The notes under the pieces were generated by a model. The model saw nothing but the letters and a program-made list of their open reading frames with translations. It did no database searches and was not told where the DNA came from. A DNA stretch of 64,000 nt from Chitinophagales bacterium (GTDB taxonomy: Bacteria > Bacteroidota > Bacteroidia > Chitinophagales > UBA2359), in NCBI GenBank assembly GCA_020629005.1, contig JAHDEE010000006.1, positions 1 through 64,000 on the forward strand, read 5' to 3'. The translations under genes and the position numbers were made by a program. Of the stretch, positions 6,901 to 46,177 are shown piece by piece. Position 1 is the stretch's first letter, and the number at the start of each line of letters is the position of its first letter.

Positions 6901-9900
6901 CAGTAATTACTTGTAGTTGGCTGCTTGTGTTTCCACATGGATCTGTGGCAGACCAAAGTCGATTAATGGTATAGTTACCACTGCAAGTACCTTCCGCTGG
7001 AATTACCTCATCTTCGTAAGTGGCAGTCAACATTCCTTCAGCACAGTCATCAGTCACTTCAATCATGATTTCGCCCGGGCCAAGGTCAGCATCGCAGCTG
7101 AGTGTTAGGTCTTCAGGAGCAGTAAATACTGGCCCGTGTGTATCCTGTACAGTGATCGTTTGTATAGCTGTGCTTGTGTTACCGCATTCATCACTTACTG
7201 ACCAGGTTCTGGTAATCGTATAATTTCCAGTACAGCCTTCCAGTTCGCTCTTTGAGAACTCGTCTGTGTAGCTTGCTGCCAATTCGCCTTTGCTACAGTT
7301 GTCTGTTGCATCTGCAACAGTACCAACAATATCAGGATTGTCAATATCCGCAGTACATTCGATCGTAAGATCAGCAGGAGGGGTGAAACTTGGTGCCATT
7401 TCGTCAACAACAGTAATCACCTGAACCTGTGTAGTGGTGTTTCCACAAGGATCTGTAGCAGACCATGTTCTGTTAATGGTATAGCTACCGGAACAGCCGC
7501 CTTCGCTTACAATAAGCTCATCCTCATAAGCAGAGGTGATGCCTCCTTCTGCGCAGTCATCATTTGCATCCAACTTGATCTCTCCCGGCGCCGTATCCGA
7601 ATCGCAGCTGACAGTCATGTCTTCAGGAGCGGTGAAAACTGGTCCATGTGTGTCTTGAACGCTTATTATCTGTACGGCTGTAGTTGCATTGCCGCACTCG
7701 TCTGTGAGTGTCCAGTTCCTGAAGATCGTGTAGGTCCCGGTACATGTTTCTAATTCTCCTGGAGTAATCACGTCTTCATAAACTGCTTGCAATTCTCCCT
7801 TTGAGCAGTTGTCTGCTTCATCGGTTACATCTCCAAGCAATTCCAGGTTTGATACATCCTGGCTACATTCAATCACTGCATTATCAGGTACAGTGAAAGT
7901 TGGAGCAGTTGTGTCTTGAATAGTAATATTTTGTGTGGCTGTAGCTGTATTGCCGCAATCATCGACAGCGGTCCAGGTTCTGCTGATGGTATAGTTCGAA
8001 GGGCAAGCTGTAGTTACTTCACTGGATAGTTCTCCTCCGGTTTCGCCAGAGCTGATCTTGTCTTCATAACTGACTTGTAGTTCACCTGTATTGCAATCAT
8101 CGCTTAGATCTGAATAGTCTCCTGTGAGTTCTAGATTTGTTGGGTCCTGATCGCATTCTAGTGTCACGTCTTCTGGCGCTGTAAAGGTAGGAGCGGTTGT
8201 GTCCTGAACTGTAATAGTTTGTTTTGCCAGAGCAATATTTCCGCAGGCATCTTCAACTGCCCAAAGTCTTGTAATGACATAGTTTCCCCGGCATGATTCT
8301 CCCTCAGGTGCCAGAACTTCATCTGTATAAGTTGCCCCGAGGAGTGCTTCTGAACATGCATCTGCTCCATCTGTAACTGTACCGGTAACGGCCGGGTCGT
8401 CGAGGTCGGCACCACATTCTACTGTCACGTCGGCTGGGGCGGTTAAAGTGGGCAATACGTCTGCCACTACAGTGATGACCTGGACATGGCTGGTACTGTT
8501 CCCACATGGGTCAGAAGCTGTCCAAACTCTGTTAATAACATATGCATTTGGGCAGCCATTTTCACTCGGTATGATTTCGTCAACGTATGTTGGTGCGAAG
8601 GCTTCCTTGCTACAAGCATCTGCAGCTCCTTTTGTTACTGATCCGGCTGCTTCTGCGATATTTACATTGCAGCTTAGCGTCACATCTTCTGGTGGAGTAA
8701 ACTGCGGTCCCTCTGTATCAACGACAGAAATCACTTGTACAGCTGTGCTTGTGTTACCACAGGCATCGGTAAGCGTCCATGTTCTGTTGATAGTGTATGC
8801 TCCCGTACAAGCAGTTACTTCTCCTGGTATGTTCTCGTCGGTATAGGTAGCTTGCAAAAGTTCCTCAGAACAGCTATCAGCTTCATCCACAACATCACCA
8901 GTAAGCTCAAGGTTTCCTGCCGACTCAGTACATTCAATGCTAACATCACCTGGCACTGTAAAAGTCGGTGCTACATCATCTACCACTGTTATTACCTGGG
9001 TCTGATAAGAAGAGTTTCCGCAAGCATCTGTTGCTACCCAGGTCCTATTGATAATATAATCGTTTGCGCAACCACCTTCAACGGGCTCTGTCTTGTCGCT
9101 GTAGGTAGGAACGATGGTCCCTTCGTTACATGGGTCTATTATCTCTGCGGAAACAGTTCCTGCTACCTCGTCAACGTTGTCGGTGCAGCTGATTGTAATA
9201 TCAGCAGGAGCTGAGAATACAGGGCCCTGTTTGTCTACTAGTGTAATGACCTGAGTTGCCGACGCGGAGTTTCCACAAGCATCTGTTAGCGTCCACACTC
9301 TGTTAATGGTGGAATTTCCCGTACAACCCGGAATCGCTCCTGGAACTACTTCATCGACGAAGGTGGCTTCCAAGGGGGCTTCTGAGCAGCTGTCAGCTTC
9401 ATCTGTTACATCTCCCATGAGTTCCAGGTTGGACACGTCCTGATCGCAACTGACACTGAGATCTCCGGGTACTGTGAAAGTGGGTAGTACGGTATCCGTG
9501 ACAGTGATTACCTGTACCTGCACATTAGAATTTCCGCATGGGTCGCTGGAAGTCCAGGTTCTGTTTATCGTATATTCCCCAGGACATCCTGTTTCTCCAG
9601 GAATGATTTCATCCGTGTAAGTTGGTGTGAAAGTTCCTATGTTACAAGCATCAGCGCCCCCTTTTTTGATGGCTCCTCCAGCAATGCTCAGGTCCGAGTC
9701 GCAACTAACTGTTGCGTCTGGCGGAGCTGTAAAGCTTGGCGGAGTAGTATCCTGTACAGTGATGATTTGCACCTGCGGCGTTTGATCCGGGCAAGCAGGA
9801 ATAATAGACCATGTTCTTGTAATGGTATAGTTTCCCTGACAAGCTTCAGGAGTGCCAGGAGTAATTTCGTCCACGTAAGTAGCTTGATCACATCCAGCTG

Positions 9901-10078
9901 GTTCGTCCAGCACATCTCCGACTATTACGAGGTCGCTTGTGCTTTGTGTGCACTCAATTGTGATGTCCGGCGGTGCGGTAAATGCCGATAGGTTAGTGCA
10001 ACAAATGAGCTGTAGCAGGATCAATAGCAGCAAGTGCGTATGCCATTTTCCTACCCAATAAATGAAATTTTTATTCAT
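908..10078 (-). CDS. Giant T9SS-secreted repeat protein (HYR-like + Cys-TSP3 + TSP3 + type A sorting domain)
   Basis: A 3056-residue protein. Residues 1-32 form a signal peptide (KWHTHLLLLILLQLICC core). Residues 33 to about 1566 hold 18 repeats of about 85 residues of the HYR-like type, each starting FTAPxDxxxxC and ending ATDxCGNxxTxxQxITVxDTxAP, with about four cysteines each. Residues 1567-2359 hold 33 copies of a 24-residue DxDGDGxCDN unit. A non-repeated domain (about 2390-2555) follows, then 10 classical TSP3 repeats (DTDGDGxxDGxE...GTDP, about 2560-2781). About 2782-2970 includes a segment typical of Bacteroidota surface proteins (LSFDGETLEEGNRLNWIT...). The last ~80 residues (QAFPIPVQDQ ... 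FDVLGREVA ... LPEGEYLIKV) are a T9SS type A sorting domain. Predicted calcium-binding, surface-attached or released; the biological role is not known. Confidence 0.9.
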   Translation of the reverse strand: MNKNFIYWVGKWHTHLLLLILLQLICCTNLSAFTAPPDITIECTQSTSDLVIVGDVLDEPAGCDQATYVDEITPGTPEACQGNYTITRTWSIIPACPDQTPQVQIITVQDTTPPSFTAPPDATVSCDSDLSIAGGAIKKGGADACNIGTFTPTYTDEIIPGETGCPGEYTINRTWTSSDPCGNSNVQVQVITVTDTVLPTFTVPGDLSVSCDQDVSNLELMGDVTDEADSCSEAPLEATFVDEVVPGAIPGCTGNSTINRVWTLTDACGNSASATQVITLVDKQGPVFSAPADITISCTDNVDEVAGTVSAEIIDPCNEGTIVPTYSDKTEPVEGGCANDYIINRTWVATDACGNSSYQTQVITVVDDVAPTFTVPGDVSIECTESAGNLELTGDVVDEADSCSEELLQATYTDENIPGEVTACTGAYTINRTWTLTDACGNTSTAVQVISVVDTEGPQFTPPEDVTLSCNVNIAEAAGSVTKGAADACSKEAFAPTYVDEIIPSENGCPNAYVINRVWTASDPCGNSTSHVQVITVVADVLPTLTAPADVTVECGADLDDPAVTGTVTDGADACSEALLGATYTDEVLAPEGESCRGNYVITRLWAVEDACGNIALAKQTITVQDTTAPTFTAPEDVTLECDQDPTNLELTGDYSDLSDDCNTGELQVSYEDKISSGETGGELSSEVTTACPSNYTISRTWTAVDDCGNTATATQNITIQDTTAPTFTVPDNAVIECSQDVSNLELLGDVTDEADNCSKGELQAVYEDVITPGELETCTGTYTIFRNWTLTDECGNATTAVQIISVQDTHGPVFTAPEDMTVSCDSDTAPGEIKLDANDDCAEGGITSAYEDELIVSEGGCSGSYTINRTWSATDPCGNTTTQVQVITVVDEMAPSFTPPADLTIECTADIDNPDIVGTVADATDNCSKGELAASYTDEFSKSELEGCTGNYTITRTWSVSDECGNTSTAIQTITVQDTHGPVFTAPEDLTLSCDADLGPGEIMIEVTDDCAEGMLTATYEDEVIPAEGTCSGNYTINRLWSATDPCGNTSSQLQVITVVDETAPTFTAPADAVIECDQDPNNLELTGNVSDAADSCTEGMLEATYEDKPLEDDAACEGSATIQRTWSLADACGNTATAVQIITVQDTTPPTFTAPDNIVVECDIDLSDKEALGTVNDAADNCSEGLTAEYVDEYVVEGEQCPGYNIINRIWTVTDACGNSTTDIQVITQQDTTAPEFVAPTEITVECDTDLSNTDLTGAVLELYDNCGADQVELTYVDEDNGYNMCERNRIVTRTWTATDACGNSSTAEQLIYLEDTTAPEFTAPSAVSISCEQDIDNTELTGTVSELFDNCFQDLITTTYEDEVAEGDCAGASTVTRTWMVADYCGNTTTATQTITVYDESAPTFTVPADVSLGCDQDLSNLELAGDVTDEADSCSETVAEATYEDMMTEGDCAGSYTISRVWSLSDDCGNVTTATQTISVGDNTAPTITCPDALSLTSLDAVPSPDSVVIVADDDCGSVEILFLGSEDNGGSGCPENPLVLVYSWSATDACGNSSSCSMEITVADGTDADGDGVCDNEDPDPESACIPDGTDTDGDGICDIDDPEPENECVPDGTDTDGDGICDNGDPEPENECIPNGSDLDLDGICDNADPEPENECVPDGTDTDGDGICDNGDPEPENECVPDGTDSDGDGVCDNADPEPENECVPDGTDTDGDGVCDFADPEPENECVPDGTDTDGDGICDNGDPEPENECIPNGTDSDGDGICDNADPEPEDECIPDGADTDGDGVCDNADPEPENECVPNGVDSDGDGICDNADPEPENECIPDGTDTDGDGICDNGDPEPENECVPNGEDLDEDGICDNADPDPQDACIPDGSDTDGDGICDNDDPDPQDECIPEGADTDGDGVCDNADPEPENECVPNGTDSDGDGICDNADPEPEDECIPDGTDTDGDGFCDNSDPLPEDPCFPDDSDTDGDGICDNEDPQPEDECIPDGTDSDGDGHCDNADPEPENACIPDGQDSDGDGVCDNEDPDVDDPCNPDNSDSDNDGYCDNADPDPQDPCVPDGEDADNDGYCDLIDPQPQDPCVPFDHDADGDGVCDNIDPEPENACIPNGVDTDNDGICDQEDPAPDDACNPYSLDTDGDGVCDVIDPIVLDPCVPVGTDSDGDGVCDNIDPEIYNSCVPDATDTDGDGVCDNEDPEVENPCVPNGTDSDGDGVCDNEDPDADNPCIPDASDVDGDGFCDHEDPQPEDACVPNGTDADGDGVCDNEDPQPENACIPNGSDADGDGICDNDDPAPEDACVPNGEDADGDGYCDSVDPQPENACVPDGTDTDGDGLCDNTDSAPENPCVPFACAPEELCADGATDSDGDGICDDAESEEGSDPNDPCDPNNTDSDLDGYCDVEELQNESDPTDPCSPDPLAIPDGDCDGDGYTNAEDPEPMVPTAYGLDITDPCVCDNPNNYQVGGDFYVAELATITAPAGDTWELDIFSYGIYDDAAQPIATATFTPAADGTYTLAFFVKAEAAYNIIVSNGTDNLVYFGEALDCVCEEEDSDEDGLSDEEEEELGTDPLDPDTDGDGINDGEEGDIGTDPTIPDTDGDGVEDGQEVDNGTDPVDPGLDVDNDGLYADAEIHLGTNPYDPDTDGDGIQDGDEGDFGTDPTIADTDGDGLIDGDEGDYGTDPTIVDTDGDGVQDGQEITNGTDPTTMGSDEDNDGLFEDAEVDLGTNPLNPDTDGDGIPDGDEGDFGTDPTNPDTDGDGLLDGEEIVMGTDPTKEEGESCPYEFELALEYICDSEALEWQVYGTIIGGQAPYTITGSFETIELNGNSFVATLGQAVNSVYIEAVEAGGCVFVNDVQDLGTCIKLSVELLSFDGETLEEGNRLNWITTDEQDNAYFILEHSTDGINFMEISRQESHGSNAVNNYGYLHFNAPPGLSYYRLSSVDNDGTQEYVEKIVTLNRAANEKFEVQAFPIPVQDQMTVEVAADQDQMIEIIVFDVLGREVAKLSQQASAGLTQIAYDASALPEGEYLIKVTGTNSSKVVNFLKL
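1735..2400 (-). repeat. 10 classical thrombospondin type 3 repeats
   Basis: The unit DTDGDGxxDGxExxxGTDPTxP recurs ten times without cysteines. The series contains an internal duplication: blocks DxDNDGLYADAEIHLGTNP and DEDNDGLFEDAEVDLGTNP open two similar sub-arrays. These repeats normally bind calcium and form a rigid stalk before the sorting domain. Confidence 0.8.
3000..5379 (-). repeat. 33 tandem 24-aa (72-bp) cysteine-bearing TSP3-like repeats
   Basis: The unit consensus is TDTDGDGICDNxDPEPENECVPDG minus minor variants, written here in parts: TDTDGDGICDN followed by xDPEPENECVPDG. I counted 33 consecutive copies with no insertion. The DxDxDG loops are calcium-binding in thrombospondin type 3 repeats, and each unit has two cysteines at fixed spacing (11 residues apart). 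Antisense frames across this stretch produce long spurious open frames. Confidence 0.85.
5380..9982 (-). repeat. 18 tandem HYR-like repeats (about 85 aa each)
   Basis: Each unit has xC near residue 11, a mid-unit DxC, a further C before YTINRTW, and a final CGN. The last unit (starting ITCPDALSL) is divergent. Two unit types alternate over repeats 2-13: type A (SC start, SDPCGN, QVQVITVVD) and type B (NLELTGDVTDEADSC, LTDACGN, AVQVITVQD). This is an Ig-like beta-sandwich class commonly found in Bacteroidota surface proteins. Confidence 0.85.
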
Positions 10079-10560: not shown

Positions 10561-10751
10561 GGCGGAAAAACCTTGCCAATAGCCTCGATAGAAGTGGAAA
10601 TAGCGCTGCACTGAACTGACTGACTGCGCCCGCTGGCAGGGCTCCCAAAGGAGACCTGCCAGCGGGATGCAGGAAGCAGTGAAGGGTAGTGCTATTGGAG
10701 CGGATAGCGAGCAAGACGCTTACGCGTTGGTTTAATGCTTCGCTCCTAAAA
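10561..10751 (-). repeat. Nested-hairpin repeat element, copy A
   Basis: Read on the minus strand it starts TTTTAGGAGCGAA and ends with ATCGAGGCTATTGGCAAGG. The inner stem is CCCGCTGGCAGG paired perfectly with CCTGCCAGCGGG (10629-10640 and 10655-10666), around a GGTCTCC...GGAGCC core. Copies B (18483-18670) and C (33539-33727) share the ends, core and about 190-bp length but have different stem sequences. It lies between two minus-strand T9SS genes. Confidence 0.65.
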
Positions 10752-10890: not shown

Positions 10891-10899
10891 CCAGATTTA

Positions 10900-11055
10900 G
10901 GGATAGGGAATCAATAACTGTCCGATTTTGACGTCGCTGGAAATGATTTAGACGAGGCATTTTTTGACAGCATCCTTGTTGGCTGGTGGAGAAAAATAAC
11001 GATGGATAAATCATTTCTAGCAAGTCAAAATGGACAGTTATTGATTCGCTGTCCC
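10900..11055. mobile_element. 156-bp MITE-like element, copy 1
   Basis: The ends are imperfect terminal inverted repeats: GGGATAGGGAATCAATAACTG at the left and the complement of GGGACAGCGAATCAATAACTG at the right, with partial pairing continuing about 50 nt inward through TTTTGAC and AAATGATTTA. It is flanked by TTA on both sides (10897-10899 and 11056-11058), a possible 3-bp target duplication. A second copy at 18770-18925 differs at one base only (T11011 versus G18881). It has no coding capacity, so it would be non-autonomous. Confidence 0.75.
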
Positions 11056-11073
11056 TTAATATTCGGTATGCTT

Positions 11074-18670: not shown

Positions 18671-18769
18671 CTTTAGCGCGTTACCGGCAATCAATCTATC
18701 ACTTTTTGTAAGCACTGATGATCCGGTTTTCGTAATGGCGATATTAAACTGTTGAAAATAAAAGACTAA
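18671..18769. other. Intergenic, nothing identified
   Basis: A short stretch between the hairpin element and the second MITE copy. No gene, promoter or terminator is supported. Confidence 0.4.
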
Positions 18770-18925
18770 GGGATAGGGAATCAATAACTGTCCGATTTTG
18801 ACGTCGCTGGAAATGATTTAGACGAGGCATTTTTTGACAGCATCCTTGTTGGCTGGTGGAGAAAAATAACGATGGATAAAGCATTTCTAGCAAGTCAAAA
18901 TGGACAGTTATTGATTCGCTGTCCC
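18770..18925. mobile_element. 156-bp MITE-like element, copy 2
   Basis: Same length, orientation and sequence as the copy at 10900-11055, with one substitution (G at 18881). It is flanked by TAA on both sides (18767-18769 and 18926-18928), a possible 3-bp target duplication. It lies between truC and the palindromic element, outside any gene. Confidence 0.75.
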
Positions 18926-19034
18926 TAAAGTATAGTTTTGTTTTTCTTTGAGTTGCTTCGAGCCGATTTCTGCTTTCTCACATTTTCCGATTTTCACTTT
19001 GCAGCCTCACACACCCGATGCTAGCTTTGAGAAG

Positions 19035-21045: not shown

Positions 21046-21381
21046 CGTATTGTTTTTTTTGTTAAAAGGAGCACGAAGATAACTGATCTGCGAGAAATAT
21101 TGCAACAAATCTACTTTGCCACGCAAGAAGAGAAACCTTCGCTGATTCACTTATTCGTGGAGCAAAAATTTGTCAAAAAAGCTCAAAAAAACGCGGTAAA
21201 ACTGAAGAGCAAAGTCACAAAATTCTGGAAAATTTGCGATCTCTGTCAGGACTTTTTTTGGGCGATTATCTTGCTATCATCCTGTAATACAGCTAACTAT
21301 ATAGAAGTTGAATGATGTTGGAGACTCATGCTCTGTCGGCCTTCTTTCCGTTTTTCCTTTCGGAAGTCTGCGATTTTTGTA
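21046..21381. other. serS upstream region
   Basis: A-rich DNA upstream of serS. A plus-strand open frame of 103 codons starting at 21004 overlaps serS antisense and is lysine-rich only because the DNA is A-rich; I do not call it. No clear serS promoter was found. Confidence 0.4.
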
Positions 21382-21413
21382 TTTGGGTTAGCGTCATCAT
21401 TTAGGCAAATTTG
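21382..21413 (+). promoter_or_regulatory. Candidate promoter of the putative small RNA
   Basis: TTTG at 21382-21385 and CAAATTTG at 21406-21413 are separated by 20 nt, the usual spacing of the Bacteroidota -33 (TTTG) and -7 (TAnnTTTG) elements. The -7 box has one mismatch (C for the first T). Confidence 0.45.
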
Positions 21414-21418
21414 TGTAC

Positions 21419-21706
21419 CGTACGAAAATTGGAAAAGGCGGAAGGTAGGAAAGGGTGAGGGAAGGTAATAAGGTAGCTGAACTATACCAAAACTACTTTC
21501 CGCCAGTCCAATAGTGTGCGGATGCTGCGATCATGCAGCCCTATTATGTACAATTATCGAAGGACGCGTCCATTGTAGTAGAGATACGGATTGGATGAGG
21601 ATGCTCCTTCCTTGTACATCTCCAATTGAATTTGCATTTAGGTGATTTTTAGTCTCTTTAGTAATGGGTCAGGGTTTAGTCATTTATCCTGGCCCTTTTC
21701 TTTTGC
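21419..21706 (+). ncRNA. Candidate structured non-coding RNA (about 285 nt)
   Basis: No convincing open frame lies here. It contains a 12-bp stem GGCGGAAGGTAG (21437-21448) / CTACTTTCCGCC (21493-21504) with one G-U pair around a 44-nt loop, then GCTGC-GATCAT-GCAGC (21524-21539). It ends in a terminator: GGGTCAGG (21666-21673) / CCTGGCCC (21688-21695) with one G-U pair, followed by TTTTCTTTT. The 3' end is 514 nt upstream of the giant gene's start, so it looks independent rather than a leader. It does not show the landmarks I know for tmRNA, RNase P RNA or SRP RNA; 6S RNA cannot be excluded. The 5' end is inferred from the promoter-like box. Confidence 0.45.
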
Positions 21707-22220
21707 CCCTTTAGCTGAAATCACTCTGGACCCGCTCGGAGTCCAAACAAAACAACAACTCCCGTCACTTAACTAATGAATTGTCCCGATCAGAACCTTC
21801 CCATTGGTTTCTTAAGACTTACCTTTCCCACTTGACGGGAATTTGCTTTTTGAAAATATTCATATATTGCGTCAAAAGTCAGCAAATCTGACTTTTATCC
21901 GCTCAGAAAACCTAGGACATTCCACCTTAAGCCAGGACTATTCACATGACATGAGCTGGGCGAGCTTTGCCCGGTCGGGCAGCTTATAAGTCATAGCTCC
22001 GAGACAGTCAAGCTACAATATATTAACAATATTTATAGTGTATTTTGGCGCTTCCTGCAATCATTTTAATTTTTTGTGTTACAAAGTGGTATAAAATTTG
22101 GATAACAACACCGGTAAATTGGTCAAATGGACCTCTAAACGGTTGATAATCAAATCTTTTTGAAAGAGGCGTCAATTTTCAGGAAGAGTTTGCATACCCA
22201 CTAATCTCAAGCACGCGCTT
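21707..22220. other. Upstream region of the 3724-aa gene
   Basis: No gene is supported. It is AT-rich with short inverted repeats, for example GGACCCGCTCGGAGTCC-like pairing near 21729-21748 and GGGCGAGCTTTGCCC near 21958-21973. No exact TAnnTTTG box was found; AAATTTGG near 22095 is a near miss. Confidence 0.35.
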
Positions 22221-25200
22221 ATGAGGATATTATTTTTTCTCCTACTGTTGTCAATAGGTACTTTTCGACTTGATGTATTGAGGGCTCAGGATGCCCTCGA
22301 TGTACTTTCATTGGAATGTTTAGATTCGTCAGACTATTTACTTGTGCCGATGGTGATCAATGGGGAGCAGCCGCTGGAAATTGTTCATTCCGATTTGGAA
22401 TCTACTGTTGGAATCTACATATCACTCTCCTCCTCGGAGGTGCATCCCACGAACATAATCGTGACTCCTGACAATGGAGAACCCTTCGCCCTGGAGATGC
22501 ATCCTACTGAGCAAAACACCATTTTTTGGACTGGCTACTTGCCGATTGCACTGGGCGACTTTAGTGTGCAAGCGGATGGAGCTAACATTGAAGAAGAATC
22601 TTTTATCACATCAATCTATGTGCTTGGTAGTGCAGGTTTTACCGCAGGGAATATTGACGCATATTTTTTTGGCGAATTTCTGGATTACAATTTGGGTCCT
22701 CCCTTCATTCAGCCAATGGAAGATTGCTACAGTTTTGATGTTCCAATTGCGGTCGATCCACAAGGGAATTTGCACAACTATTTACTTAAGTTAGTGCTAC
22801 GCGATTTGCAGGGATCTGAGAATCCAGCCTCTCTTCGGCTTACCTATGGGGATATAAGCGCTGAATTTGAGATTTTCGGAACAGAAGCGTTTTCCGACCT
22901 GGCCGTATTTGAACAGACGCTCATTAACGTTGATCCCACTGGAGTTCCTTTGGAAATTCTGCTCTGTTCCAAACAGTTTAATGCGAATGATGCCCTTGGA
23001 CAACCTTTCTTTCTAGAATCAATTGCTTTGCTTGAAGAAGATGATTGTTGCTTTGAAGTTCTGGACACACAAGTTACCCCTCCAGACTGTGGCCAAAACA
23101 ATGGGTCAATTGCTCTTCTGCTCTCTGAAGACACCGGCCCCTTTCAGATTGACTATACGCTTCCAGACGGAACTCCGGTTTCGGAGACAATTCCCTTTCA
23201 GAACGGGGGGGTTACTATCGAAAACCTTCCTGCAGCTAACTATATTATAACAATCACAGATACGGAGGGTTGCGAACTTGTTTTATCTAATCTGACGGTA
23301 CCTACAGCCGCTGGCTGCTGCGATGATCTTTCGCTCACTTACATGAGCTTCAACCCAAGCGCCTGTGGGGTAAATGACGGCTCCATTGATATGCAGGGAG
23401 TTGGAGGCAGTGGTGAATATGAATTTTCAATCGATGGTGGTGAAATATGGTTCACTGCAGGATTGTTCAACAATCTTCCTCCTGGGAGCTACCCCTTAGC
23501 AATCAGAACAATTCAAGATGATTGCTTCGCATTAGCAGAAACAGCAATCTTGACAACACCAGAAGGCATTGTCGTGACAGACGTAAGCGTCAGTCCGGTC
23601 TCTTGCTTTGGTGACGAAGATGCTCAGATCACCGTTACCGTAGATGGAGCTACAGCTGGTCTGCAATATAGTATCGACGCAGGCATTACTTATCAATCGG
23701 AAAATGTTTTTGCTGGGCTTGCGGCAGGAATCTATGAACTGTTTGTCAGTTCAGGAGATGATTGCACTATTGAATATGGCCAAATTTTGATTGAAGCTCC
23801 GACAGAATTGGAACTCATAGATATCGTTGATAACGACGTTAACTGTGTGGGAAATGGTGAGGGCTCGATCGAGATATATGCTTCAGCTGGTGAAGGGGTA
23901 TCACTTCAATATTCAATAGATGGCGGTGAAACCTTTACAGATAACAGTGTATTCCTGGGATTAGATCCTGCTGTTTACCAAATAGCCGTTCGTAATCTTG
24001 CAGGCTGCTTGGTAACTGGTGAGGCGACCATCAATTTTAATGGTGCAGATCTCGTTGAGTTTGATGTTAGTTTCCAGGAAAACTCTGGTTGCGGCGAGCA
24101 AGATGGTTTTATTGAATTCACCGCCTTGGGCGGTGTTCCTCCCTATCAATATTCAATCGATGGAGGACTTGTTTATCAGACTCAGCCTTTATTTGAGAAT
24201 CTTGGAGGGGGCTTTTATGAGCTATACATCAAAGATCAAAACGATTGCATCGGAACCTATGAAGCTGGGGTGCTTTCCTTCGCCTCTTCTGAATCCCCGC
24301 TGGTTTCTGATGTGCAATATTTTAATCCTTCCTGTTTTGGGGGTGACGACGGTGTGATCTCGATTGTCGCAGCCGGCGGCTCCGGAATCCTCGAATACTC
24401 TGTGGATGGTGGCGACACTTATATCGCTTCCAACACTATCGACGGTCTAACTTCAGGCTTGTACGAAATTCTGGTAAGGGACGATGCTGGCTGTACCGTC
24501 ACTTTTGAAAATGAGATATTGCTTCTTGATCCAGATCAGCTTTCAAACATAACAATAGAAATTACGCAGCTGCTAGATTGCGAAAGTAACAGCGCAACTG
24601 TTGAGGTATTTACTGTAGGCGGGACAGGATTACTGGAATACTCTGTTGATGGGGGCGAAACCTATTCTTTTGACAATAGCTTTATCGATCTTGATGCAGG
24701 GATTTACAATGTAGTGGTAAAGGATGCGAATGATTGCTCCCTCGATTACGAGGAAAATCCAGTGATTATTGAAGAGCCAACTGAATTCCTTGGCGTGGAT
24801 GTTTTGGCGCTGGATGTCACTTCCTGTGCTGAGCCCGATGGGCAGATCATCATTACTGCAACTGGAGGAGTTGATCCGCTTGAGTATTCAATTGACAATG
24901 GTATGACCTTTACGGAAGAGAATGTATTTAGCGGATTGTCAAGCGGAGAGTATCAGATTCTGGTTCAAGATGGTCTGGGCTGCGAAGCTGCTTACACAGA
25001 AACAGTAACGCTGGGACAGCCAGATGACATCGCGATCACAGATGTGCAAACTACACCGCTCGTTTGTTCGGGAGACGGTACAGGCCAGGTGACAGTATTT
25101 GCTTCTGGCGGCGCAGAGCCTTTGGAATATTCGCTCAATGGTGAGGACTGGCAATCAAATAATCAGTTTACTGATTTGCAAGCCGGTTCCTACACGGTCT

Positions 25201-28200
25201 GGGTGAGAGACGACCTCGCTTGTCTGATTCACACCGATGAGTTTGTCAGCTTGACAGAACCACTGCCAGTAACGGTGGCGGAAGTCATTGCTACCGATCT
25301 TTCTTGCCCTGAGTCAAATGACGGTACCATTACCGTTTTTGCCTCCGGTGGTAGCGGTGCCTTACAGTACTCTATTGACGGAGGAATTAACTTCAGCAGT
25401 TCAACGGTATTTACTGATCTCCCTCCCGGTGCATACAGTGTACTGGTTGCTGATGATTCAGATTGTACCTCTGATTTGACAGTAGCTACAGAAGTCTTGG
25501 AAGCAGAAACGCCGATTATAAATGTGTCAATCACAAATGCAAATGATTGCGAGTCTAACAATGGTTCCATCGAGATAGAAGTAGTAGATGGCTTGGAACC
25601 CTTGACATACTCCATTGATAATGGAGAAAATTATTCCTCGGACCCCTTCTTTGCAGAACTGGGTGGTGGTGTGTATCAACTACTGGTTCGAGATGCAGAG
25701 CTTTGTGTTTATAATTATGGAAATGTTGAACTGTTCCAGGGAGCAGAAATCAACTTCACCGCTGAACCAGCAGTCGTTGATCCGGATTGTACGGGGCTAG
25801 GAGGCTCCATATCCATTCAAGTCGATGGCGGCGCAGAGCCGTATGCATATTCGATTGACAATGGAAGTTCCTTTCAGGATACTGGTTTGTTTGAAAATCT
25901 GGGGGAAGGAGATTACTTGATTCAAGTAGCTGATTCTGCCAATTGTACAGCAAATTATAGTGAGGTCATAAGCCTCGTGGCTCCTGCGTCATTTGAGATA
26001 CTCGATGTACTTGTTGCACCGTTTGATTGTGCAGGGGCCCTGGGGTCAATTCAGATTTCAACTTCAGCTGCTGATCTTAGCTATTCAGTAGATGGCACAA
26101 ATTTTCAAAATGAAAGTCTCTTTGAGGATTTGCCCGCAGGCTCCTACACAGTAGTTGTTCAGAATCAAGATGGTTCTTGCGCTCAGGAATATTTGGACAA
26201 TCCAGTAGTAATAGAGCCAAGTGGCGATTGCGGCAGCATCTCAGGTGTTGCATTTATTGACGAAAATGGTAATGAGCAATATGATGTAGGAGAGCCACTC
26301 ATTGAAGGGGCCTTGGTCTCCATAATTGCCCCGGATGGAACGCTAACAGTGTTAGAAACGGATGAGCTTGGTGCCTATGAACTTATAGGAGTGGAGCCTG
26401 GGGATTACATAGTCTCCATCAATCCGGATTCTGTGGCAGAGAACCTCATACCAATCACTGCAGTTTCTGAAACAGTGTCTGTAGGAGATGGTACTGGCGC
26501 AGAAGTAGACTTTGGTTTTGCGGAAGATATTCCGAATACTCTGGAATTGGTAGATGATCTGGTAAATGTAGACTTTGGAGAAACCGTAGAGATCGACGTA
26601 CTTGCAAATGATCTGATTGACGACCTTCAAATCATTGACTGGACAGAGACAGCAAATGGCACATTTGAACTGACAGAAGACGGCACTTTGATATTTACAC
26701 CTGCTGAAGGCTTTACCGGAAGTCTGACCATTCAATACTCCGCACAAAATTCTGCTGGAGAACAAGGTATTGCAACGCTGACGATCAATGTGGGCCCGAA
26801 TGCTATTGATGACTACTTTATTACACAACCAAATACTCCAGTAACCTTCAACCCGCTTACAAATGATCTTGGTGTGGATTTGTCTGTTGTGGATTTCACA
26901 ATACCAGATGGTGGTGAACTGATTCTTGGTGATGATGGAGAGTTCACTTTCGTGCCCATAGATGGCTTTGAAGGATCCGTCACCTTCATCTACACGATCG
27001 AGGATGCTAACGGCAATACAAGCACAGCAATTGGTACCGTGGAGATCACCTTCGATATCCCAACTCCTCCAGTAGCTATGGATGATACTTATAACACCTT
27101 TCAAGGAGTTTCAATATCTCTTGATGTACTGGAAAATGACTCGGGTGTATCGATCGCTATCGAAACACTTGTGCCTCCGGTCAATGCTATTACCCTGATA
27201 GAGGGAGAAATGATCCTATTTACTCCCGAGGATGGATACATCGGCGATATTACTTTTACTTACACCATTGTTGATGCCGCGGGACAAACTGACACAGCAA
27301 TCGTGACAGTCACAGTGGAAGCAGATGACTCTCTGGTTGTTGACGCCATCAATGACTTTGAAGAAACAGACAACAACTCTCCCATCGTGATCGATGCATT
27401 GCTAAATGACATAGGTGCTGGTATCTACATTTCAAGCTTTACACAACCTGCCTTTGGAGGAGAAGTGATTTTGGGCGACGATGGTTTGATCTTTACACCG
27501 GACTCGAATTTTGTTGGTCAAGCGGTTTTCCAATACAGTATCTCGGATCAGGAAGGAAACATGGATACTGCAACAGTAACAATTACCGTCTTCTCCTCTG
27601 ATGCCCCAGACGCTGTCGATGACTTTTACACAACTACGGTCAATACTCCGATTAACCTGGACCTGATTGAAAATGACACCGGCTTCGCCATCGTGATCGA
27701 GGAAGTTAGCTTGCCAATACCTTCGGGAGGTACAATTCTAAATGATGATGGAACAGTGACCTTTATTCCAGAACAGGGTTTCACTGGTCTTGTTGTATTC
27801 ACATACTCGATTCTAAATCAAGATGGTCTGTCAGATACAGCTACCGTGACAGTAAATGTAGTGTTGGAAGCCAACTTGCCACCATGTGTGGACACCTTGT
27901 CTTTCTGCACGACTCCTCTCTCTACTGTTCCGGTGTGCTTCGATTACTGTGAGCCGGAGGGACAACCAAGCACCATCGTAGATGTACAAACTACCTTCAA
28001 CTGTAGTATATCGGTGACCAGTGACCTCTGCTTCAATTATACACCGCTACCGCAATTCTTTGGAATGGATTCAGTCTATGTCACAATTTGTGATAATCAG
28101 AACCCTCAAGAGTGTTCAGTCTCTACGGTATTTGTGTTCACACTCGGACCAGACCAAGAGGTCGTGCTGGCAGTTGACGACACTTTCGAGATTCCTGCAA

Positions 28201-31200
28201 ATCAAAGTATGCAGATCGATCCTTTAAGCAATGACGAAGGAGAACAACTGTTCCTACTTGAATTTACCGAACCAGGTGAGGGGGCGAGTGTAACTCAACA
28301 AGGAGCTCAATTGCAGGTAAGTCCTGACCCGGATTATCTGGGGCAGGTCCAGTTTGATTACCAAATCGAAGACTTTTGCGGTTCAATTTCTCAGGCAACC
28401 ATTACCCTGGATATTATCGATCCGGTAGAAGATCCGTTTGAAGCGGTACCTGATGTCGTAAATACCATCACCAACACCCCAATCAATATTTCTGTATTGG
28501 ATAATGATACAGGTGAAGGACTAATGATCACTGGGGTAACACAGCCTGAAGTTGGAGGTACAGTCATGATCGTTGGCGACGATATTGTATTCACTCCAGA
28601 TGATGACTTTACCGGTTTGGTCGAATTTGAATACACCATAACAGATGAAAATGGACAAACAGCAAATGCCACTGTTACCGTCCTTGTGGAAGATCCACCT
28701 GAACCAGTTTGCGATACTTCCGCATATTTAACGGCCCTATGTACAGTGCCAGTCCAACCAGAAGTTATATGCTTCGATTGGTGTACCCTCGAGGGCGACA
28801 GCATTGAAGTGGTAGAAGTAACAGCACTATACAATTGCAGCATCAATCTGGACGATCATCCCCCTGAATGCTTTGGATATACTGCATTGCCAGGTTCAGC
28901 CGGACTAACTAACGAGCTCACGGTGGTAGCCTGTGACAATAACGAGGTCTGTGACACTGCCTACGTTGAAGTATATGTGGGATGTTTCCCACCGCTGGCA
29001 TTGGACGATTTCGTCTTACTGGAGGAAGAATCAATAATGATAGATGTACTAGCCAACGATAGCGATCCATGCTACTCAATCGACACCTTGACTACCCTGG
29101 CTATTACGCAACCACTCAACGGAACCATTGAGCCGGATGCAGCAGGTCGGTTCAACTATACACCCAATGAGGGCTTTATTGGAACAGATTCCTATACCTA
29201 CCAGGTATGCAATCCATGTATCGATCTCAGCTGTGATACGGCAACTGTTACAATCACGGTCCTGGATGTCACACCTCCTGAGGAGATCATCGCTGTGTTG
29301 GATGTAATCACAACTCCCTACGAAACACCAGTTACTATCGAGGTCTTAATAAATGATTCCGGTGAGGGCATCTCCATTGATTCCTTCACTGACCCAATCA
29401 ACGGTACCGTCAGCTTGAGTCCCGACGGTAGCGCATTAGTTTATACGCCAAACCTGGGTTTCAGCGGGGGAGACTTCTTCTTCTATACTATAATTGATGA
29501 AGAAGGAAACACATCGACCGCAGCTGTCACAGTTGAAGTGCTCGAAGATGGCGCACCAAACCAACCACCTTCAATCAACGGAGATGTATTTGAAGTCGAA
29601 CCAAATGAAATAGTTACACTGCCTGTTCTGGATAATGATTCAGATCCCGAAGGCGGCGAGATCTCGATACTTGATGTTATTGGACCAGACAATGGAGGAA
29701 CAGTGACCTTCAACGAAGATAGCACGGAACTGATTTTTACTCCAGATCCCGACTTTATTGGAGAAGTGGAATTTGAGTACGTGGCCTGTGATGATGATGA
29801 CCCTCCTGCTTGTGACACAGCAACAGTGGTGATCTCCGTTGGGACGGAAGTCAGCAACAATTCCCCCGTAGCTACTATAGATGAAGCAACCCTCACCAAT
29901 ATGGACGAGTTTGTGGTCATTGGCGTCTGCGGTAATGACTTGGATATTGACGGAGACCAACTTTCTGTATCGATACTGGTGCCTTCTGCGATTGGCTCCA
30001 TTGAGCAAGATCCTACAGATGATTCTGGTTGCACGTTCATCTATACTCCCAACGAATTTATCGATGGAGCTCAAGATGTTTTCAGCTATTTGCTTTGCGA
30101 CAATGGTATTCCTGTGCTCTGTGACTCTACATTTGTAACAGTCAACTATACCTTCATCCCGGAAGAGATTAGTGCTGAGCCAGATGCAGCGACAACCAAT
30201 TTTGAGGAATCTATAACCATTCACGTACTGGCAAACGATATTGGGGAAGGCCTTACAATCATTGAAATAGCGCAGCCGGAAAACGGCACTGTAGCATTCA
30301 ATGAAGACAGTACTGCCATTATATATACCCCAAATCCTGGTTTTGACGGAGATGATCTCTTCTTCTATACCATCATGGATGCCGATGGCAACACAGATGC
30401 CACCGTTGTCACTATCACTGTGCTGCCGGATGATCAGGAAAACCTACCTCCATTGGCCAATAATGATAGCTTTGAATTCGAAGAGTATGAAGAGCTAATC
30501 ACTTTGGATGTCTTAGGAAACGACACCGATCCAGAGGGAGGATTACTCACCATCACCGAAGTGATAGGGCCCACAGAAGGAGGAACCGTCACTATTAGCG
30601 AGGATGGAACTAACTTGATCTTCGCTCCCGATTCTGGGTATGTAGGCAATATCAGCTTCGATTATGAAGTCTGCGATGAAGAAGGCCTCTGCGATACTGC
30701 AACAGTCGCAATCGCACTAGGTGGAATGGAACCAATCAACTCAGCTCCAATCGGAATAGAGGACAATTTCGATATGCTACCGACTGAAGACTTCATCATC
30801 ATCGATGTTTGTGCCAATGATAGCGACCCGGATGGAGACGACCTTAGCGTTTCTGTCCTGGGGCCTCCGGCCTTTGGAATCGTTACGGCAGATGAATCGG
30901 ACCCCTCTGGTTGTACTATGATTTATACCCTGCTGGATCCTGATGCAGACACCGACGGATTTTCATATCTGCTCTGCGACAACGGAGAGCCGCAACTATG
31001 CGATACTGTAGCCGTCATTATCACGATCTATCAAGGTACTGGCGAAGTCGAGCTAAATCCCGACGTTGTGCAAACGCCGTACGAAACCAGTGTTACCATC
31101 GATGTACTGCTAAATGACAACGCAGACTTTCCACTTACCATCACCGGTTTTACCAATCCGGAAAATGGCACAGTAGCCTTTGGTGAAGGTGGAACGGTTC

Positions 31201-33395
31201 TGATTTATACGCCAAACGATGGCTTCAGCGGTTCTGATTTCTTCTTCTACGATGCCTGCGATGCAGAAGCCAATTGTGCCTCAACCATCGTGTCAGTAAG
31301 TGTTCTACCGGAAGATGCAATCAACATGCCCCCGATTGCCAACAACGATCTGGTACTTACCGATCCCGGAGAAGCTGTCCTTATCTCGGTTTTAGACAAC
31401 GATAGTGATCCGGAAAACCAGCTTCTCACAATCTCCTACCACACAGATCCGGAGTTTGGAGTCGTAACCTACAATGAAGACAGCACAGCCTTGATCTACA
31501 CGCCAAATGATGGAGTGGACATGGTTGAAGATTCATTCTCCTACGTCATTTGCGATCCATTAGGACTTTGCGATACAGCCAATGTCTTCATCGCCATCGG
31601 TACCGATCCAAGCAATAGCTACCCGAATGCTGAAAATGACGAAGCCACCACAGATATCAATGTTCCGGTCATAATCAATATTTGTGAAAATGATTCTGAT
31701 CCGGATGTTGGCCAGTTACTGACCATCACAATAGTGGCAGAACCAGCAAATGGTACAGTGGAAATCATCAATGACACCCTGCAGAATCAAGAGTGTTTGG
31801 TCGAATATACCCCAAATGAGGGCTTTGTAGGCGAAGATTATCTGGTGTATATCCTCTGCGACAATGGAGTGCCTGAGCTCTGCGATACAGCATTTGTGAC
31901 CATTACAATGGTCCAGGATTCAGTCCCTCAACCACAGATCGATGCCGAACCCGATATCGCTGTGACCTCGGTCAATGATCCGGTGCTGATTGATGTGCTC
32001 GCAAACGACGAAGGGCAAAATCTAACAATAACCGACTTTACAAATCCGCCTAATGGAACCGTCATCTTTACCGTTGACGGCAATGGACTCATCTATACGC
32101 CAGTGCCTGGCTTTATCGGTACAGATTACTTTGAATACGTCATCTGCGACGATATTGGCCAATGCGATACCGCACTGGTCGCAGTTGTGGTACAACCTGA
32201 AAGCATCACCAATTTGCCACCGACAGGAATCAGCGATGCCTACTGTTTTGAAGATGATCAGCCAAACATAATTGATGTATTAGCCAATGATCTTGATAGC
32301 TTTGGAGGTGACGAGCTCACGCTAGACTCCTTTACGCAAGGTGCCTTTGGAACACTGACACAAGATGGCGAAACGCTACTCTACACACCAATTGAAGGGG
32401 GCACCGAGTGCGATGTATTTGAATATGTGGTCTGCGACAATGGAACACCCGTTCTTTGCGATACCGTGATGGTCGAATATTGTATTCTCAATTGTGATGA
32501 CCAAAACAATCCACCTTACGCCCTGGAAGACTATGCAACCGTAACTAACTGTGAACCTACGACCATCTCAGTGCTAGACAACGATGAAGACCCGGACGGA
32601 GACAACTTGGTTATCTCCTTTATCACAAGTCCGGCTATGGGAGAAGCAGTGCATCTAAACGGTCAGTCAATCTATACACCGGACTCTGGCTATGTAGGCC
32701 TGGATTACTTCGTGTACACCGTTTGCGATGAAGGAATACCCCCATATTGTGTCAATGGAGCAGTGTTCCTAACGGTGGAGGAATGCGAACCCGAAGATAC
32801 TATCCCGGCTGACACGCTAGTGGTAGCAATCGATGACAATTTCATGGCCGTAACTGGTGAGGTGCTCACAATGCCAATCTTGTCCAATGATACCTTGTCC
32901 CATGAACAGACTCTTTTGGAAATCATCACCGATCCTATCGCAGGCAACTCAGCCATGGTCGTTGGAAATGAAATTCAATATGTCGCAGCCCTCGGATTTG
33001 AGGGGCCAGATAGCTTGCAATACCTTGTCTGTATTGAGGATATATGTGATTCAGCTTGGGTATACATAACTGTCGGCCCTCCTGAAGAGCCCGAAGTCAA
33101 TTGCGATTCTCTCTTAATTGCCAACGGTTTCTCGCCAAATGGTGACGGCATTCAAGATTACTTTGTGATTCCCGATCTCTACGATTGCTATCCCGCAAAT
33201 GAGCTCAGGATTTACAATCGCTGGGGAGTCGAGGTTTACAACGCCGTCGGATATGGAGATGCCATTCAATGGGACGGAACCTGGCAGGAAAGCGGCGATC
33301 CGCTTCCCGATGGAACTTACTTTTACCTACTGGTGCTTGATCCAGCCAATGAAGCCCTTGAACCACGCGATGGATACATAGAACTCCGTAGATAA
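22221..33395 (+). CDS. Giant gliding-motility-type surface protein (SprB + Ig/cadherin-like repeats, T9SS type B CTD)
   Basis: A 3724-residue protein. Residues 1-23 are a signal peptide (MRILFFLLLLSIGTF ... RAQ). Residues 24-275 are an unassigned head. About 275-1335 are 13 SprB-type repeats (core YSIDGGxTYQxSxxFxxLxxGxYxVxVxDxxxC). About 1339-1434 is one SdrD_B-like domain (GVAFIDENGNEQYD...). About 1437-3620 are some 21 Ig/cadherin-like repeats (xNDxxxTxxxxxxxIDVLxNDSD ... YTPNxGFxGxDxFxYxxCD ... CDTAxVxxxV), interrupted twice by a Cys-rich module. The end (ANGFSPNGDGIQDYF, LRIYNRWGVEVYN, WDGTW, LPDGTYFYLLVL) is the gliding-motility-associated type B C-terminal domain. SprB proteins in Flavobacterium are mobile gliding adhesins; a similar adhesive role is inferred. 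Confidence 0.92.
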   Translation: MRILFFLLLLSIGTFRLDVLRAQDALDVLSLECLDSSDYLLVPMVINGEQPLEIVHSDLESTVGIYISLSSSEVHPTNIIVTPDNGEPFALEMHPTEQNTIFWTGYLPIALGDFSVQADGANIEEESFITSIYVLGSAGFTAGNIDAYFFGEFLDYNLGPPFIQPMEDCYSFDVPIAVDPQGNLHNYLLKLVLRDLQGSENPASLRLTYGDISAEFEIFGTEAFSDLAVFEQTLINVDPTGVPLEILLCSKQFNANDALGQPFFLESIALLEEDDCCFEVLDTQVTPPDCGQNNGSIALLLSEDTGPFQIDYTLPDGTPVSETIPFQNGGVTIENLPAANYIITITDTEGCELVLSNLTVPTAAGCCDDLSLTYMSFNPSACGVNDGSIDMQGVGGSGEYEFSIDGGEIWFTAGLFNNLPPGSYPLAIRTIQDDCFALAETAILTTPEGIVVTDVSVSPVSCFGDEDAQITVTVDGATAGLQYSIDAGITYQSENVFAGLAAGIYELFVSSGDDCTIEYGQILIEAPTELELIDIVDNDVNCVGNGEGSIEIYASAGEGVSLQYSIDGGETFTDNSVFLGLDPAVYQIAVRNLAGCLVTGEATINFNGADLVEFDVSFQENSGCGEQDGFIEFTALGGVPPYQYSIDGGLVYQTQPLFENLGGGFYELYIKDQNDCIGTYEAGVLSFASSESPLVSDVQYFNPSCFGGDDGVISIVAAGGSGILEYSVDGGDTYIASNTIDGLTSGLYEILVRDDAGCTVTFENEILLLDPDQLSNITIEITQLLDCESNSATVEVFTVGGTGLLEYSVDGGETYSFDNSFIDLDAGIYNVVVKDANDCSLDYEENPVIIEEPTEFLGVDVLALDVTSCAEPDGQIIITATGGVDPLEYSIDNGMTFTEENVFSGLSSGEYQILVQDGLGCEAAYTETVTLGQPDDIAITDVQTTPLVCSGDGTGQVTVFASGGAEPLEYSLNGEDWQSNNQFTDLQAGSYTVWVRDDLACLIHTDEFVSLTEPLPVTVAEVIATDLSCPESNDGTITVFASGGSGALQYSIDGGINFSSSTVFTDLPPGAYSVLVADDSDCTSDLTVATEVLEAETPIINVSITNANDCESNNGSIEIEVVDGLEPLTYSIDNGENYSSDPFFAELGGGVYQLLVRDAELCVYNYGNVELFQGAEINFTAEPAVVDPDCTGLGGSISIQVDGGAEPYAYSIDNGSSFQDTGLFENLGEGDYLIQVADSANCTANYSEVISLVAPASFEILDVLVAPFDCAGALGSIQISTSAADLSYSVDGTNFQNESLFEDLPAGSYTVVVQNQDGSCAQEYLDNPVVIEPSGDCGSISGVAFIDENGNEQYDVGEPLIEGALVSIIAPDGTLTVLETDELGAYELIGVEPGDYIVSINPDSVAENLIPITAVSETVSVGDGTGAEVDFGFAEDIPNTLELVDDLVNVDFGETVEIDVLANDLIDDLQIIDWTETANGTFELTEDGTLIFTPAEGFTGSLTIQYSAQNSAGEQGIATLTINVGPNAIDDYFITQPNTPVTFNPLTNDLGVDLSVVDFTIPDGGELILGDDGEFTFVPIDGFEGSVTFIYTIEDANGNTSTAIGTVEITFDIPTPPVAMDDTYNTFQGVSISLDVLENDSGVSIAIETLVPPVNAITLIEGEMILFTPEDGYIGDITFTYTIVDAAGQTDTAIVTVTVEADDSLVVDAINDFEETDNNSPIVIDALLNDIGAGIYISSFTQPAFGGEVILGDDGLIFTPDSNFVGQAVFQYSISDQEGNMDTATVTITVFSSDAPDAVDDFYTTTVNTPINLDLIENDTGFAIVIEEVSLPIPSGGTILNDDGTVTFIPEQGFTGLVVFTYSILNQDGLSDTATVTVNVVLEANLPPCVDTLSFCTTPLSTVPVCFDYCEPEGQPSTIVDVQTTFNCSISVTSDLCFNYTPLPQFFGMDSVYVTICDNQNPQECSVSTVFVFTLGPDQEVVLAVDDTFEIPANQSMQIDPLSNDEGEQLFLLEFTEPGEGASVTQQGAQLQVSPDPDYLGQVQFDYQIEDFCGSISQATITLDIIDPVEDPFEAVPDVVNTITNTPINISVLDNDTGEGLMITGVTQPEVGGTVMIVGDDIVFTPDDDFTGLVEFEYTITDENGQTANATVTVLVEDPPEPVCDTSAYLTALCTVPVQPEVICFDWCTLEGDSIEVVEVTALYNCSINLDDHPPECFGYTALPGSAGLTNELTVVACDNNEVCDTAYVEVYVGCFPPLALDDFVLLEEESIMIDVLANDSDPCYSIDTLTTLAITQPLNGTIEPDAAGRFNYTPNEGFIGTDSYTYQVCNPCIDLSCDTATVTITVLDVTPPEEIIAVLDVITTPYETPVTIEVLINDSGEGISIDSFTDPINGTVSLSPDGSALVYTPNLGFSGGDFFFYTIIDEEGNTSTAAVTVEVLEDGAPNQPPSINGDVFEVEPNEIVTLPVLDNDSDPEGGEISILDVIGPDNGGTVTFNEDSTELIFTPDPDFIGEVEFEYVACDDDDPPACDTATVVISVGTEVSNNSPVATIDEATLTNMDEFVVIGVCGNDLDIDGDQLSVSILVPSAIGSIEQDPTDDSGCTFIYTPNEFIDGAQDVFSYLLCDNGIPVLCDSTFVTVNYTFIPEEISAEPDAATTNFEESITIHVLANDIGEGLTIIEIAQPENGTVAFNEDSTAIIYTPNPGFDGDDLFFYTIMDADGNTDATVVTITVLPDDQENLPPLANNDSFEFEEYEELITLDVLGNDTDPEGGLLTITEVIGPTEGGTVTISEDGTNLIFAPDSGYVGNISFDYEVCDEEGLCDTATVAIALGGMEPINSAPIGIEDNFDMLPTEDFIIIDVCANDSDPDGDDLSVSVLGPPAFGIVTADESDPSGCTMIYTLLDPDADTDGFSYLLCDNGEPQLCDTVAVIITIYQGTGEVELNPDVVQTPYETSVTIDVLLNDNADFPLTITGFTNPENGTVAFGEGGTVLIYTPNDGFSGSDFFFYDACDAEANCASTIVSVSVLPEDAINMPPIANNDLVLTDPGEAVLISVLDNDSDPENQLLTISYHTDPEFGVVTYNEDSTALIYTPNDGVDMVEDSFSYVICDPLGLCDTANVFIAIGTDPSNSYPNAENDEATTDINVPVIINICENDSDPDVGQLLTITIVAEPANGTVEIINDTLQNQECLVEYTPNEGFVGEDYLVYILCDNGVPELCDTAFVTITMVQDSVPQPQIDAEPDIAVTSVNDPVLIDVLANDEGQNLTITDFTNPPNGTVIFTVDGNGLIYTPVPGFIGTDYFEYVICDDIGQCDTALVAVVVQPESITNLPPTGISDAYCFEDDQPNIIDVLANDLDSFGGDELTLDSFTQGAFGTLTQDGETLLYTPIEGGTECDVFEYVVCDNGTPVLCDTVMVEYCILNCDDQNNPPYALEDYATVTNCEPTTISVLDNDEDPDGDNLVISFITSPAMGEAVHLNGQSIYTPDSGYVGLDYFVYTVCDEGIPPYCVNGAVFLTVEECEPEDTIPADTLVVAIDDNFMAVTGEVLTMPILSNDTLSHEQTLLEIITDPIAGNSAMVVGNEIQYVAALGFEGPDSLQYLVCIEDICDSAWVYITVGPPEEPEVNCDSLLIANGFSPNGDGIQDYFVIPDLYDCYPANELRIYNRWGVEVYNAVGYGDAIQWDGTWQESGDPLPDGTYFYLLVLDPANEALEPRDGYIELRR
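23043..26230 (+). repeat. 13 SprB-type repeats
   Basis: About 80 residues each. The unit starts with a beta strand and xC, then GxI.I.AxGGxxPLxYSIDGG, then FxxLxAGxYxVxVxDxxxC. The cysteine pair is well kept. These are degenerate at DNA level. Confidence 0.85.
26236..26525 (+). repeat. SdrD_B-like domain
   Basis: One copy, with ENGNEQYDVGEPLIEGALV and the closing VDFGFAE motif typical of the Cna-B/SdrD_B fold, between the SprB and Ig-like arrays. Confidence 0.75.
27880..28152 (+). other. Cys-rich module, copy 1
   Basis: About 90 residues: CxxxxSFCTTPLSTVPVCFDYC, then FNCSI, then LCFNYTPLPQFFG and TICDN...CSVSTVFVF. It recurs at 28700, 43781, 44970 and 45531. Confidence 0.6.
28700..28986 (+). 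other. Cys-rich module, copy 2
   Basis: Pattern ALCTVPVQPEVICFDWC, YNCSI, ECFGYTALPGSAG, ACDNNEVCDTAYVEV. Same order and spacing as copy 1. Confidence 0.6.
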
Positions 33396-46133: not shown

Positions 46134-46177
46134 AAAGGGCCTACAGTTGCGCTAAGCAACTGTAGGCCCTTTTGTTT
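46134..46177 (+). terminator. Rho-independent terminator of the 3892-aa gene
   Basis: A perfect 14-bp stem GGGCCTACAGTTGC (46137-46150) / GCAACTGTAGGCCC (46156-46169), loop GCTAA, then TTTTGTTT, 28 nt past the stop. Flanking A and T runs extend the stem, so it could work in both directions. Confidence 0.9.

Follow-up and report, generated by a model that had tools for sequence, protein, structure and literature searches.

To our knowledge, RNA regulation in Bacteroidota is known mostly from Bacteroides. The sections of PMC7366714 that deal with B. thetaiotaomicron describe validated intergenic sRNAs, GibS among them, with a start site and an intrinsic terminator as features; they give TTTG/TAnnTTTG as the promoter consensus, and list 6S RNA as known in Bacteroides. 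According to the part of PMC11697453 that concerns RNA binding, RbpB binds sRNAs, preferring single-stranded regions, and its clients of the FopS family are multicopy RNAs with a single-stranded seed at the 5' end. A probe with a UAG core, GUAGGAUA, is reported as bound in the excerpt of PMC12119571 that cites Adams 2021. No description of the RNA considered here, and nothing on sRNAs of Chitinophagales, was found among the papers listed in literature searches.

The locus lies in the window, a 64,000-nt stretch of a Chitinophagales contig, in the ~1.17 kb gap between a minus-strand gene (ATG near 21045), which we take to be serS as the preliminary description did, and a giant open reading frame on the plus strand that starts at 22221. 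A stand-alone structured RNA had been proposed in this gap. The observation is real and largely right, and, as far as sequence comparison goes, a conserved element is confirmed. We consider it fairly probable that positions 21418-21704 (plus strand) constitute an independent, trans-acting intergenic sRNA gene of ~285 nt. Within this reading, the existence of an independent RNA carries more weight; the trans mode of action is inferred. The element is probably a genus-restricted sRNA gene, and an ordinary kind of bacterial regulator. Like the Bacteroides intergenic sRNAs in the sections of PMC7366714 cited above, it is intergenic, with a promoter-like box of its own and an intrinsic terminator; however, no sequence or Rfam relationship to them was found, and its length, ~285 nt, sets it apart.

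A search of 99 genomes, the window's own included, yielded two matches, one in the window's own genome (G000) and one in a congener, G001 (Chitinophagales MAG contig JAHDDV010000013.1). In G001, the same element is found at the same place, between serS and a giant gene, with 77% identity over query positions 1-324. Both genomes of the genus that were searched contain the element, each as one full match, i.e., in single copy. Over the predicted transcript, 21418-21704, the start of which is placed from the -7 box and is uncertain by a few nt, 75% of aligned bases are identical in the two species, and the longest identical run is 70 nt. In the same genome pair, serS DNA is 71% identical with a longest run of 17 nt, RNase P RNA is 82% identical (run of 36), and SRP RNA is 95% identical (run of 32). 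The flanks of the element retain 45% and 51% of aligned bases (~36% per alignment column), with runs of 5 and 9 nt. When the whole gap was aligned and identity calculated per 40 nt, a value of 0.82 was obtained just upstream of serS (21046-21085), followed by 0.28-0.62 over 21086-21365; identity then climbs from the promoter-like box, reaches 1.0 at 21646-21685, and drops back past the T-run. The borders of conservation, as they appear in the alignment, are therefore the promoter-like box and the T-run of the terminator, and it is the conservation of the element, set against the non-conserved flanks, that is decisive. The 70-nt identical block (21630-21699, plus strand) spans the linker, the terminator stem, and the terminator loop, and is letter-perfect in both species. 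What surprises in this two-species comparison is that the terminator loop and the linker are perfectly conserved.

At the upstream border, the promoter-like pair reported earlier is present: TTTG at 21382-21385 is followed, after a spacing of 20 nt, by CAAATTTG at 21406-21413. The -33-like TTTG is contained in a promoter-proximal block (21376-21402, plus strand) that is near-identical in the congener, while the flank upstream of it is at background identity. At the place of the -7-like box (consensus TAnnTTTG), the congener has GATCTTTG, and so retains TTTG and the A..TTTG portion of the box at the same spacing, giving TTTG-N20-nAnnTTTG in both species. The first T of TAnnTTTG is absent from both, being C or G. 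Taken alone, the promoter pattern occurs at chance level, with 7 matches in the window versus 5.6 in shuffled sequences. At the downstream border, the intrinsic terminator (21666-21704, plus strand) consists of a 10-bp stem, 21666-21675/21686-21695, and a T-rich tail, TTTTCTTTT, that extends to 21704; stem and tail are identical in the congener. A simple hairpin scan omits this terminator, since its loop is longer than the limit of the scan.

The assertion that the region contains no credible open frame is borne out, the longest frames inside 21400-21720 being 43 aa on the plus strand and 27 aa on the minus strand. In the congener, three indels (1, 1, and 2 nt) disrupt the 43-aa frame. A coding sequence was therefore rejected, as the frames are short and none is conserved. 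From the end of the terminator it is 516 nt to the giant frame at 22221, in agreement with the earlier figure of more than 500 nt, and the independent transcript that had been deduced from it is the supported reading. Since serS is divergent, a plus-strand RNA terminated at 21704 must begin within the gap. Another block, at 22075-22102 (plus strand, apart from the RNA element and just upstream of the giant frame), is identical over 28 nt in the congener and looks like the promoter of the giant gene itself. With serS divergent and this promoter-like block separate, the unit is consistent with an independent transcript.

The RNA is predicted to fold into hairpins in series. The 5' hairpin (21429-21511, plus strand) comprises an outer helix, 21429-21433/21507-21511, and a main 12-bp helix, P1, in which GGCGGAAGGTAG (21437-21448) pairs with CTACTTTCCGCC (21493-21504). 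This 12-bp stem is as originally noted; the epithet "long-range" mildly overstated a loop of 44 nt. Of 11 P1 pairs that could be aligned with the congener, 7 are unchanged, 3 have one-sided changes and still pair, and 1 is a mismatch. The outer 5-pair helix is possible in both species but in a shifted register, and two double changes in it depend on that shift. The purine-rich apical region, GGTGAGGGAAGGT(A)ATAAGGTAGCTGAACTA(T/A)ACCAAAACT (21454-21494, plus strand), is nearly invariant, with one indel and one substitution over 41 nt. The middle helix, P3 (21559-21610, plus strand), is formed by 21559-21564/21605-21610 and 21566-21571/21599-21604 around a one-base bulge; 11 of its 12 pairs are unchanged in the congener, and the remaining one carries a one-sided change that preserves pairing. 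The GCTGC/GCAGC hairpin was found where it had been described (21524-21539, plus strand); it is not conserved as such, and the congener has an unrelated hairpin instead. The label "structured" thus holds for the main stem and the 12-pair middle helix, which persist in the congener, but not for the GCTGC hairpin.

Between the two sequences, neither P1 nor P3 nor the terminator stem shows compensatory changes on both sides of a pair, and invariant pairs say nothing in favour of a structure. There is, therefore, little covariation support for the stems, and two sequences cannot give real covariation evidence. The predicted fold of 21410-21706 has a z of -3.59 (0 of 200 shuffles as good), and that of the congener a z of -1.94 (7 of 200). 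When 80 windows of 288 nt were ranked by fold energy (20 selected gap positions, each taken on both strands, plus 40 positions drawn at random), the element came 8th, behind other intergenic windows that contain hairpins or repeats. We conclude that folding by itself does not single out the element, which is not exceptional among the intergenic windows of the contig.

Landmarks of tmRNA, RNase P RNA, and SRP RNA had been declared absent from the element, and this stands. ARAGORN detected no genes in the window and no match was obtained with Rfam models, while canonical copies of RNase P RNA (RF00010) and SRP RNA (RF00169) are located elsewhere in both genomes of the genus; these three classes were rejected. 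No Rfam family reached its gathering score, 6S included, and none was convincing at E values up to 10, in either the window or the congener. The best sub-threshold match was to RsaH (RF01821), a staphylococcal sRNA, at 20.1 bits in the window and 24.7 bits in the congener (E 2 and 0.2; gathering score 50), and the two matches are not independent, since the block concerned is identical in both species. The likeness is confined to the UUUAGUA...GGG terminator region; the scores are far below the cut-off, and most of the 5' part of RsaH is missing from the element. A multicopy mobile element was rejected because the element is single copy, as was a phage or plasmid origin, because no match was found in viral contigs, phages, or plasmids. 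The basis for a stand-alone plus-strand RNA, which is the best reading, is thus formed by the conservation borders, the lack of a conserved frame, the lack of an Rfam match, and the location of RNase P and SRP RNAs elsewhere.

Outside the genus, no relative was detected in 18 other genomes of the family or in wider searches. In 17 other genomes of the family, the sequence upstream of serS contained no homologue (two matches at E 20 and 53), with the stretches of L011, L017, and L019 shorter than 1500 nt; G011 had no serS match. A covariance model, R1, produced 10 matches outside the genus when run over 298 genomes of the order (E 1.3e-7 to 0.31); its structure was an automatic RNAalifold prediction on an alignment in which the 5' strand of the main stem is out of place, which limits the sensitivity of the model. 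Five of the 10 matches (the others being L058, L059, L061, L062, and L064) were searched again, giving alignments for four (L055, L056, L057, and L060) and a score only for L063. The matches in L055, L056, and L057 cover 141-186 nt, compared with 288 nt, with the 3' block largely or wholly missing; that in L060, judged by eye, looks like an open frame on the opposite strand. With up to three mismatches allowed, the 5' motif was found in 3 of 396 genomes of the order: the window's own, the congener, and L066, where the rest of the RNA is absent around it. The 77-nt 3' block, searched against 20 family genomes at E values up to 10, gave only short, weak matches outside the genus. Slices around eight of these matches (L025-L030, L043, and L044; the L026 slice stops short of its match) revealed no homologue. 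An exact 21-mer of the block occurred in one contig only of the genome_contigs collection, apparently that of G001, and a serS search of viral contigs returned nothing.

If the element is an sRNA gene, a Bacteroidota-type promoter of its own would start the RNA, an intrinsic terminator of its own would end it, and the product would act in trans. Two parts that hardly change, the purine-rich apical region (21454-21494) and the linker (21630-21665) together with the terminator loop, would be shielded and held out by the stable 5' hairpin and the middle helix, and would make contact with mRNAs, an RNA-binding protein, or both; the invariant 3' segment with the terminator would be the partner-binding part. 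When three segments of the RNA were compared with eight nearby translation starts, nothing convincing emerged, the best of the 24 comparisons being equalled in 6 of 200 shuffles. A stronger version, which we regard as improbable, is that the terminator doubles as a binding module, that a dedicated partner (a protein or many mRNAs) reads the loop and the linker, and that the RNA is a central post-transcriptional regulator of a lineage with large genomes and giant adhesins. An unlikely alternative, formed by analogy with RbpB and the Bacteroides sRNAs, is that of a decoy or client RNA: an RRM-type protein would bind UUUAG sites and either be titrated by the RNA or stabilise it. TTTAG occurs four times within 45 nt (21637, 21648, 21657, and 21675), a density of the motif unequalled on either strand of the window, with all four copies inside the invariant block, and G000 encodes one RRM_1 protein, of 94 aa. 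However, the motif was chosen post hoc, and once any 5-mer is allowed, an equally repeated one occurs in 308 of 1000 shuffled versions of the block, so that the repeat is not significant after correction; moreover, no RRM_1 match was found in G001 (~90% complete), which has the RNA. The FopS family, in the part of PMC11697453 that describes it, resembles the element in having a conserved stretch by the terminator, and the genome here encodes an RRM_1 protein; it differs in being multicopy with a 5' single-stranded seed, while the element occurs once per genome, carries a large hairpin domain at its 5' end, and belongs to another order of Bacteroidota.

The element could also be the leader of the giant adhesin gene, its terminator acting as an attenuator that controls read-through into the frame at 22221. 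The two are on the same strand, and the element stays upstream of a giant gene in both species; but 516 nt separate the terminator from the start codon, part of the intervening sequence is at background identity, and both species share, letter for letter, the separate promoter-like block at 22075-22102, which makes a leader quite unlikely. We judge a divergent 6S RNA, which would bind RNA polymerase, very unlikely. It would be a stand-alone RNA of a few hundred nt, as the element is, and none of the 20 family genomes has a 6S RNA over the cut-off with either Rfam model (RF00013 or RF01685), leaving a place for a divergent one; yet neither species gave a 6S match even at E 10, in a test that is weak because RF00013 also missed the Bacteroides control genome. 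In addition, the 5' and 3' ends of the element are not predicted to pair into a long closed hairpin that is bulged at its centre; in the modelled fold, hairpins follow one another, and the terminator is perfectly conserved. The notion that the conserved object is a DNA site, for recombination, replication, or regulator binding, and that no RNA is made, strikes us as most improbable. In its favour, perfect identity over 70 nt is uncommon even among structured RNAs, and the transcript is a predicted one. Against it, the element is single copy, the conserved blocks are arranged as promoter, paired helices, and terminator, and the helices still pair despite changes.

If the sRNA reading is correct, an uncultured Chitinophagales lineage would have a conserved sRNA gene here, and the 70 nt conserved to the letter in its 3' half, an identical run that RNase P RNA does not equal in the same genome pair, would point to a strong, testable interaction.

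Several other features of the window were observed. The whole-gap alignment with the congener contains a second conserved block at 21842-21936, TTCATATATTGCGTCAA. In several family genomes, the gene next to serS has a start that, judged by eye, resembles that of Rho, and similar strings, TAATATTGC/TAATATTAC, were seen by eye upstream of this Rho-like frame in L006, L008, L011, and L016. The block may be an old promoter retained after the arrival of the giant gene. The giant frame at 22221 contains Big_9, cadherin-like, SprB, and CHU_C (type IX secretion signal) domains, as revealed by a domain scan. Giant frames are located at 908-10078, 22221-33395, 34431-46109, and 46907-64000 (3056, 3724, 3892, and at least 5698 aa, respectively), and both of the two that were domain-scanned contain repeat domains and type IX secretion signals. 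A palindromic, MITE-like element of ~165 bp, with 34-nt arms ~98 nt apart, is present at 10893-11062 and 18763-18929; it has at least 40 copies in the genome at 96-100% identity (40 scored of 210 first-look candidates). Strong hairpins with perfect or near-perfect 17-nt arms are located at 10629-10666 and 46134-46172, the latter directly after a giant frame, and are perhaps bidirectional terminators.
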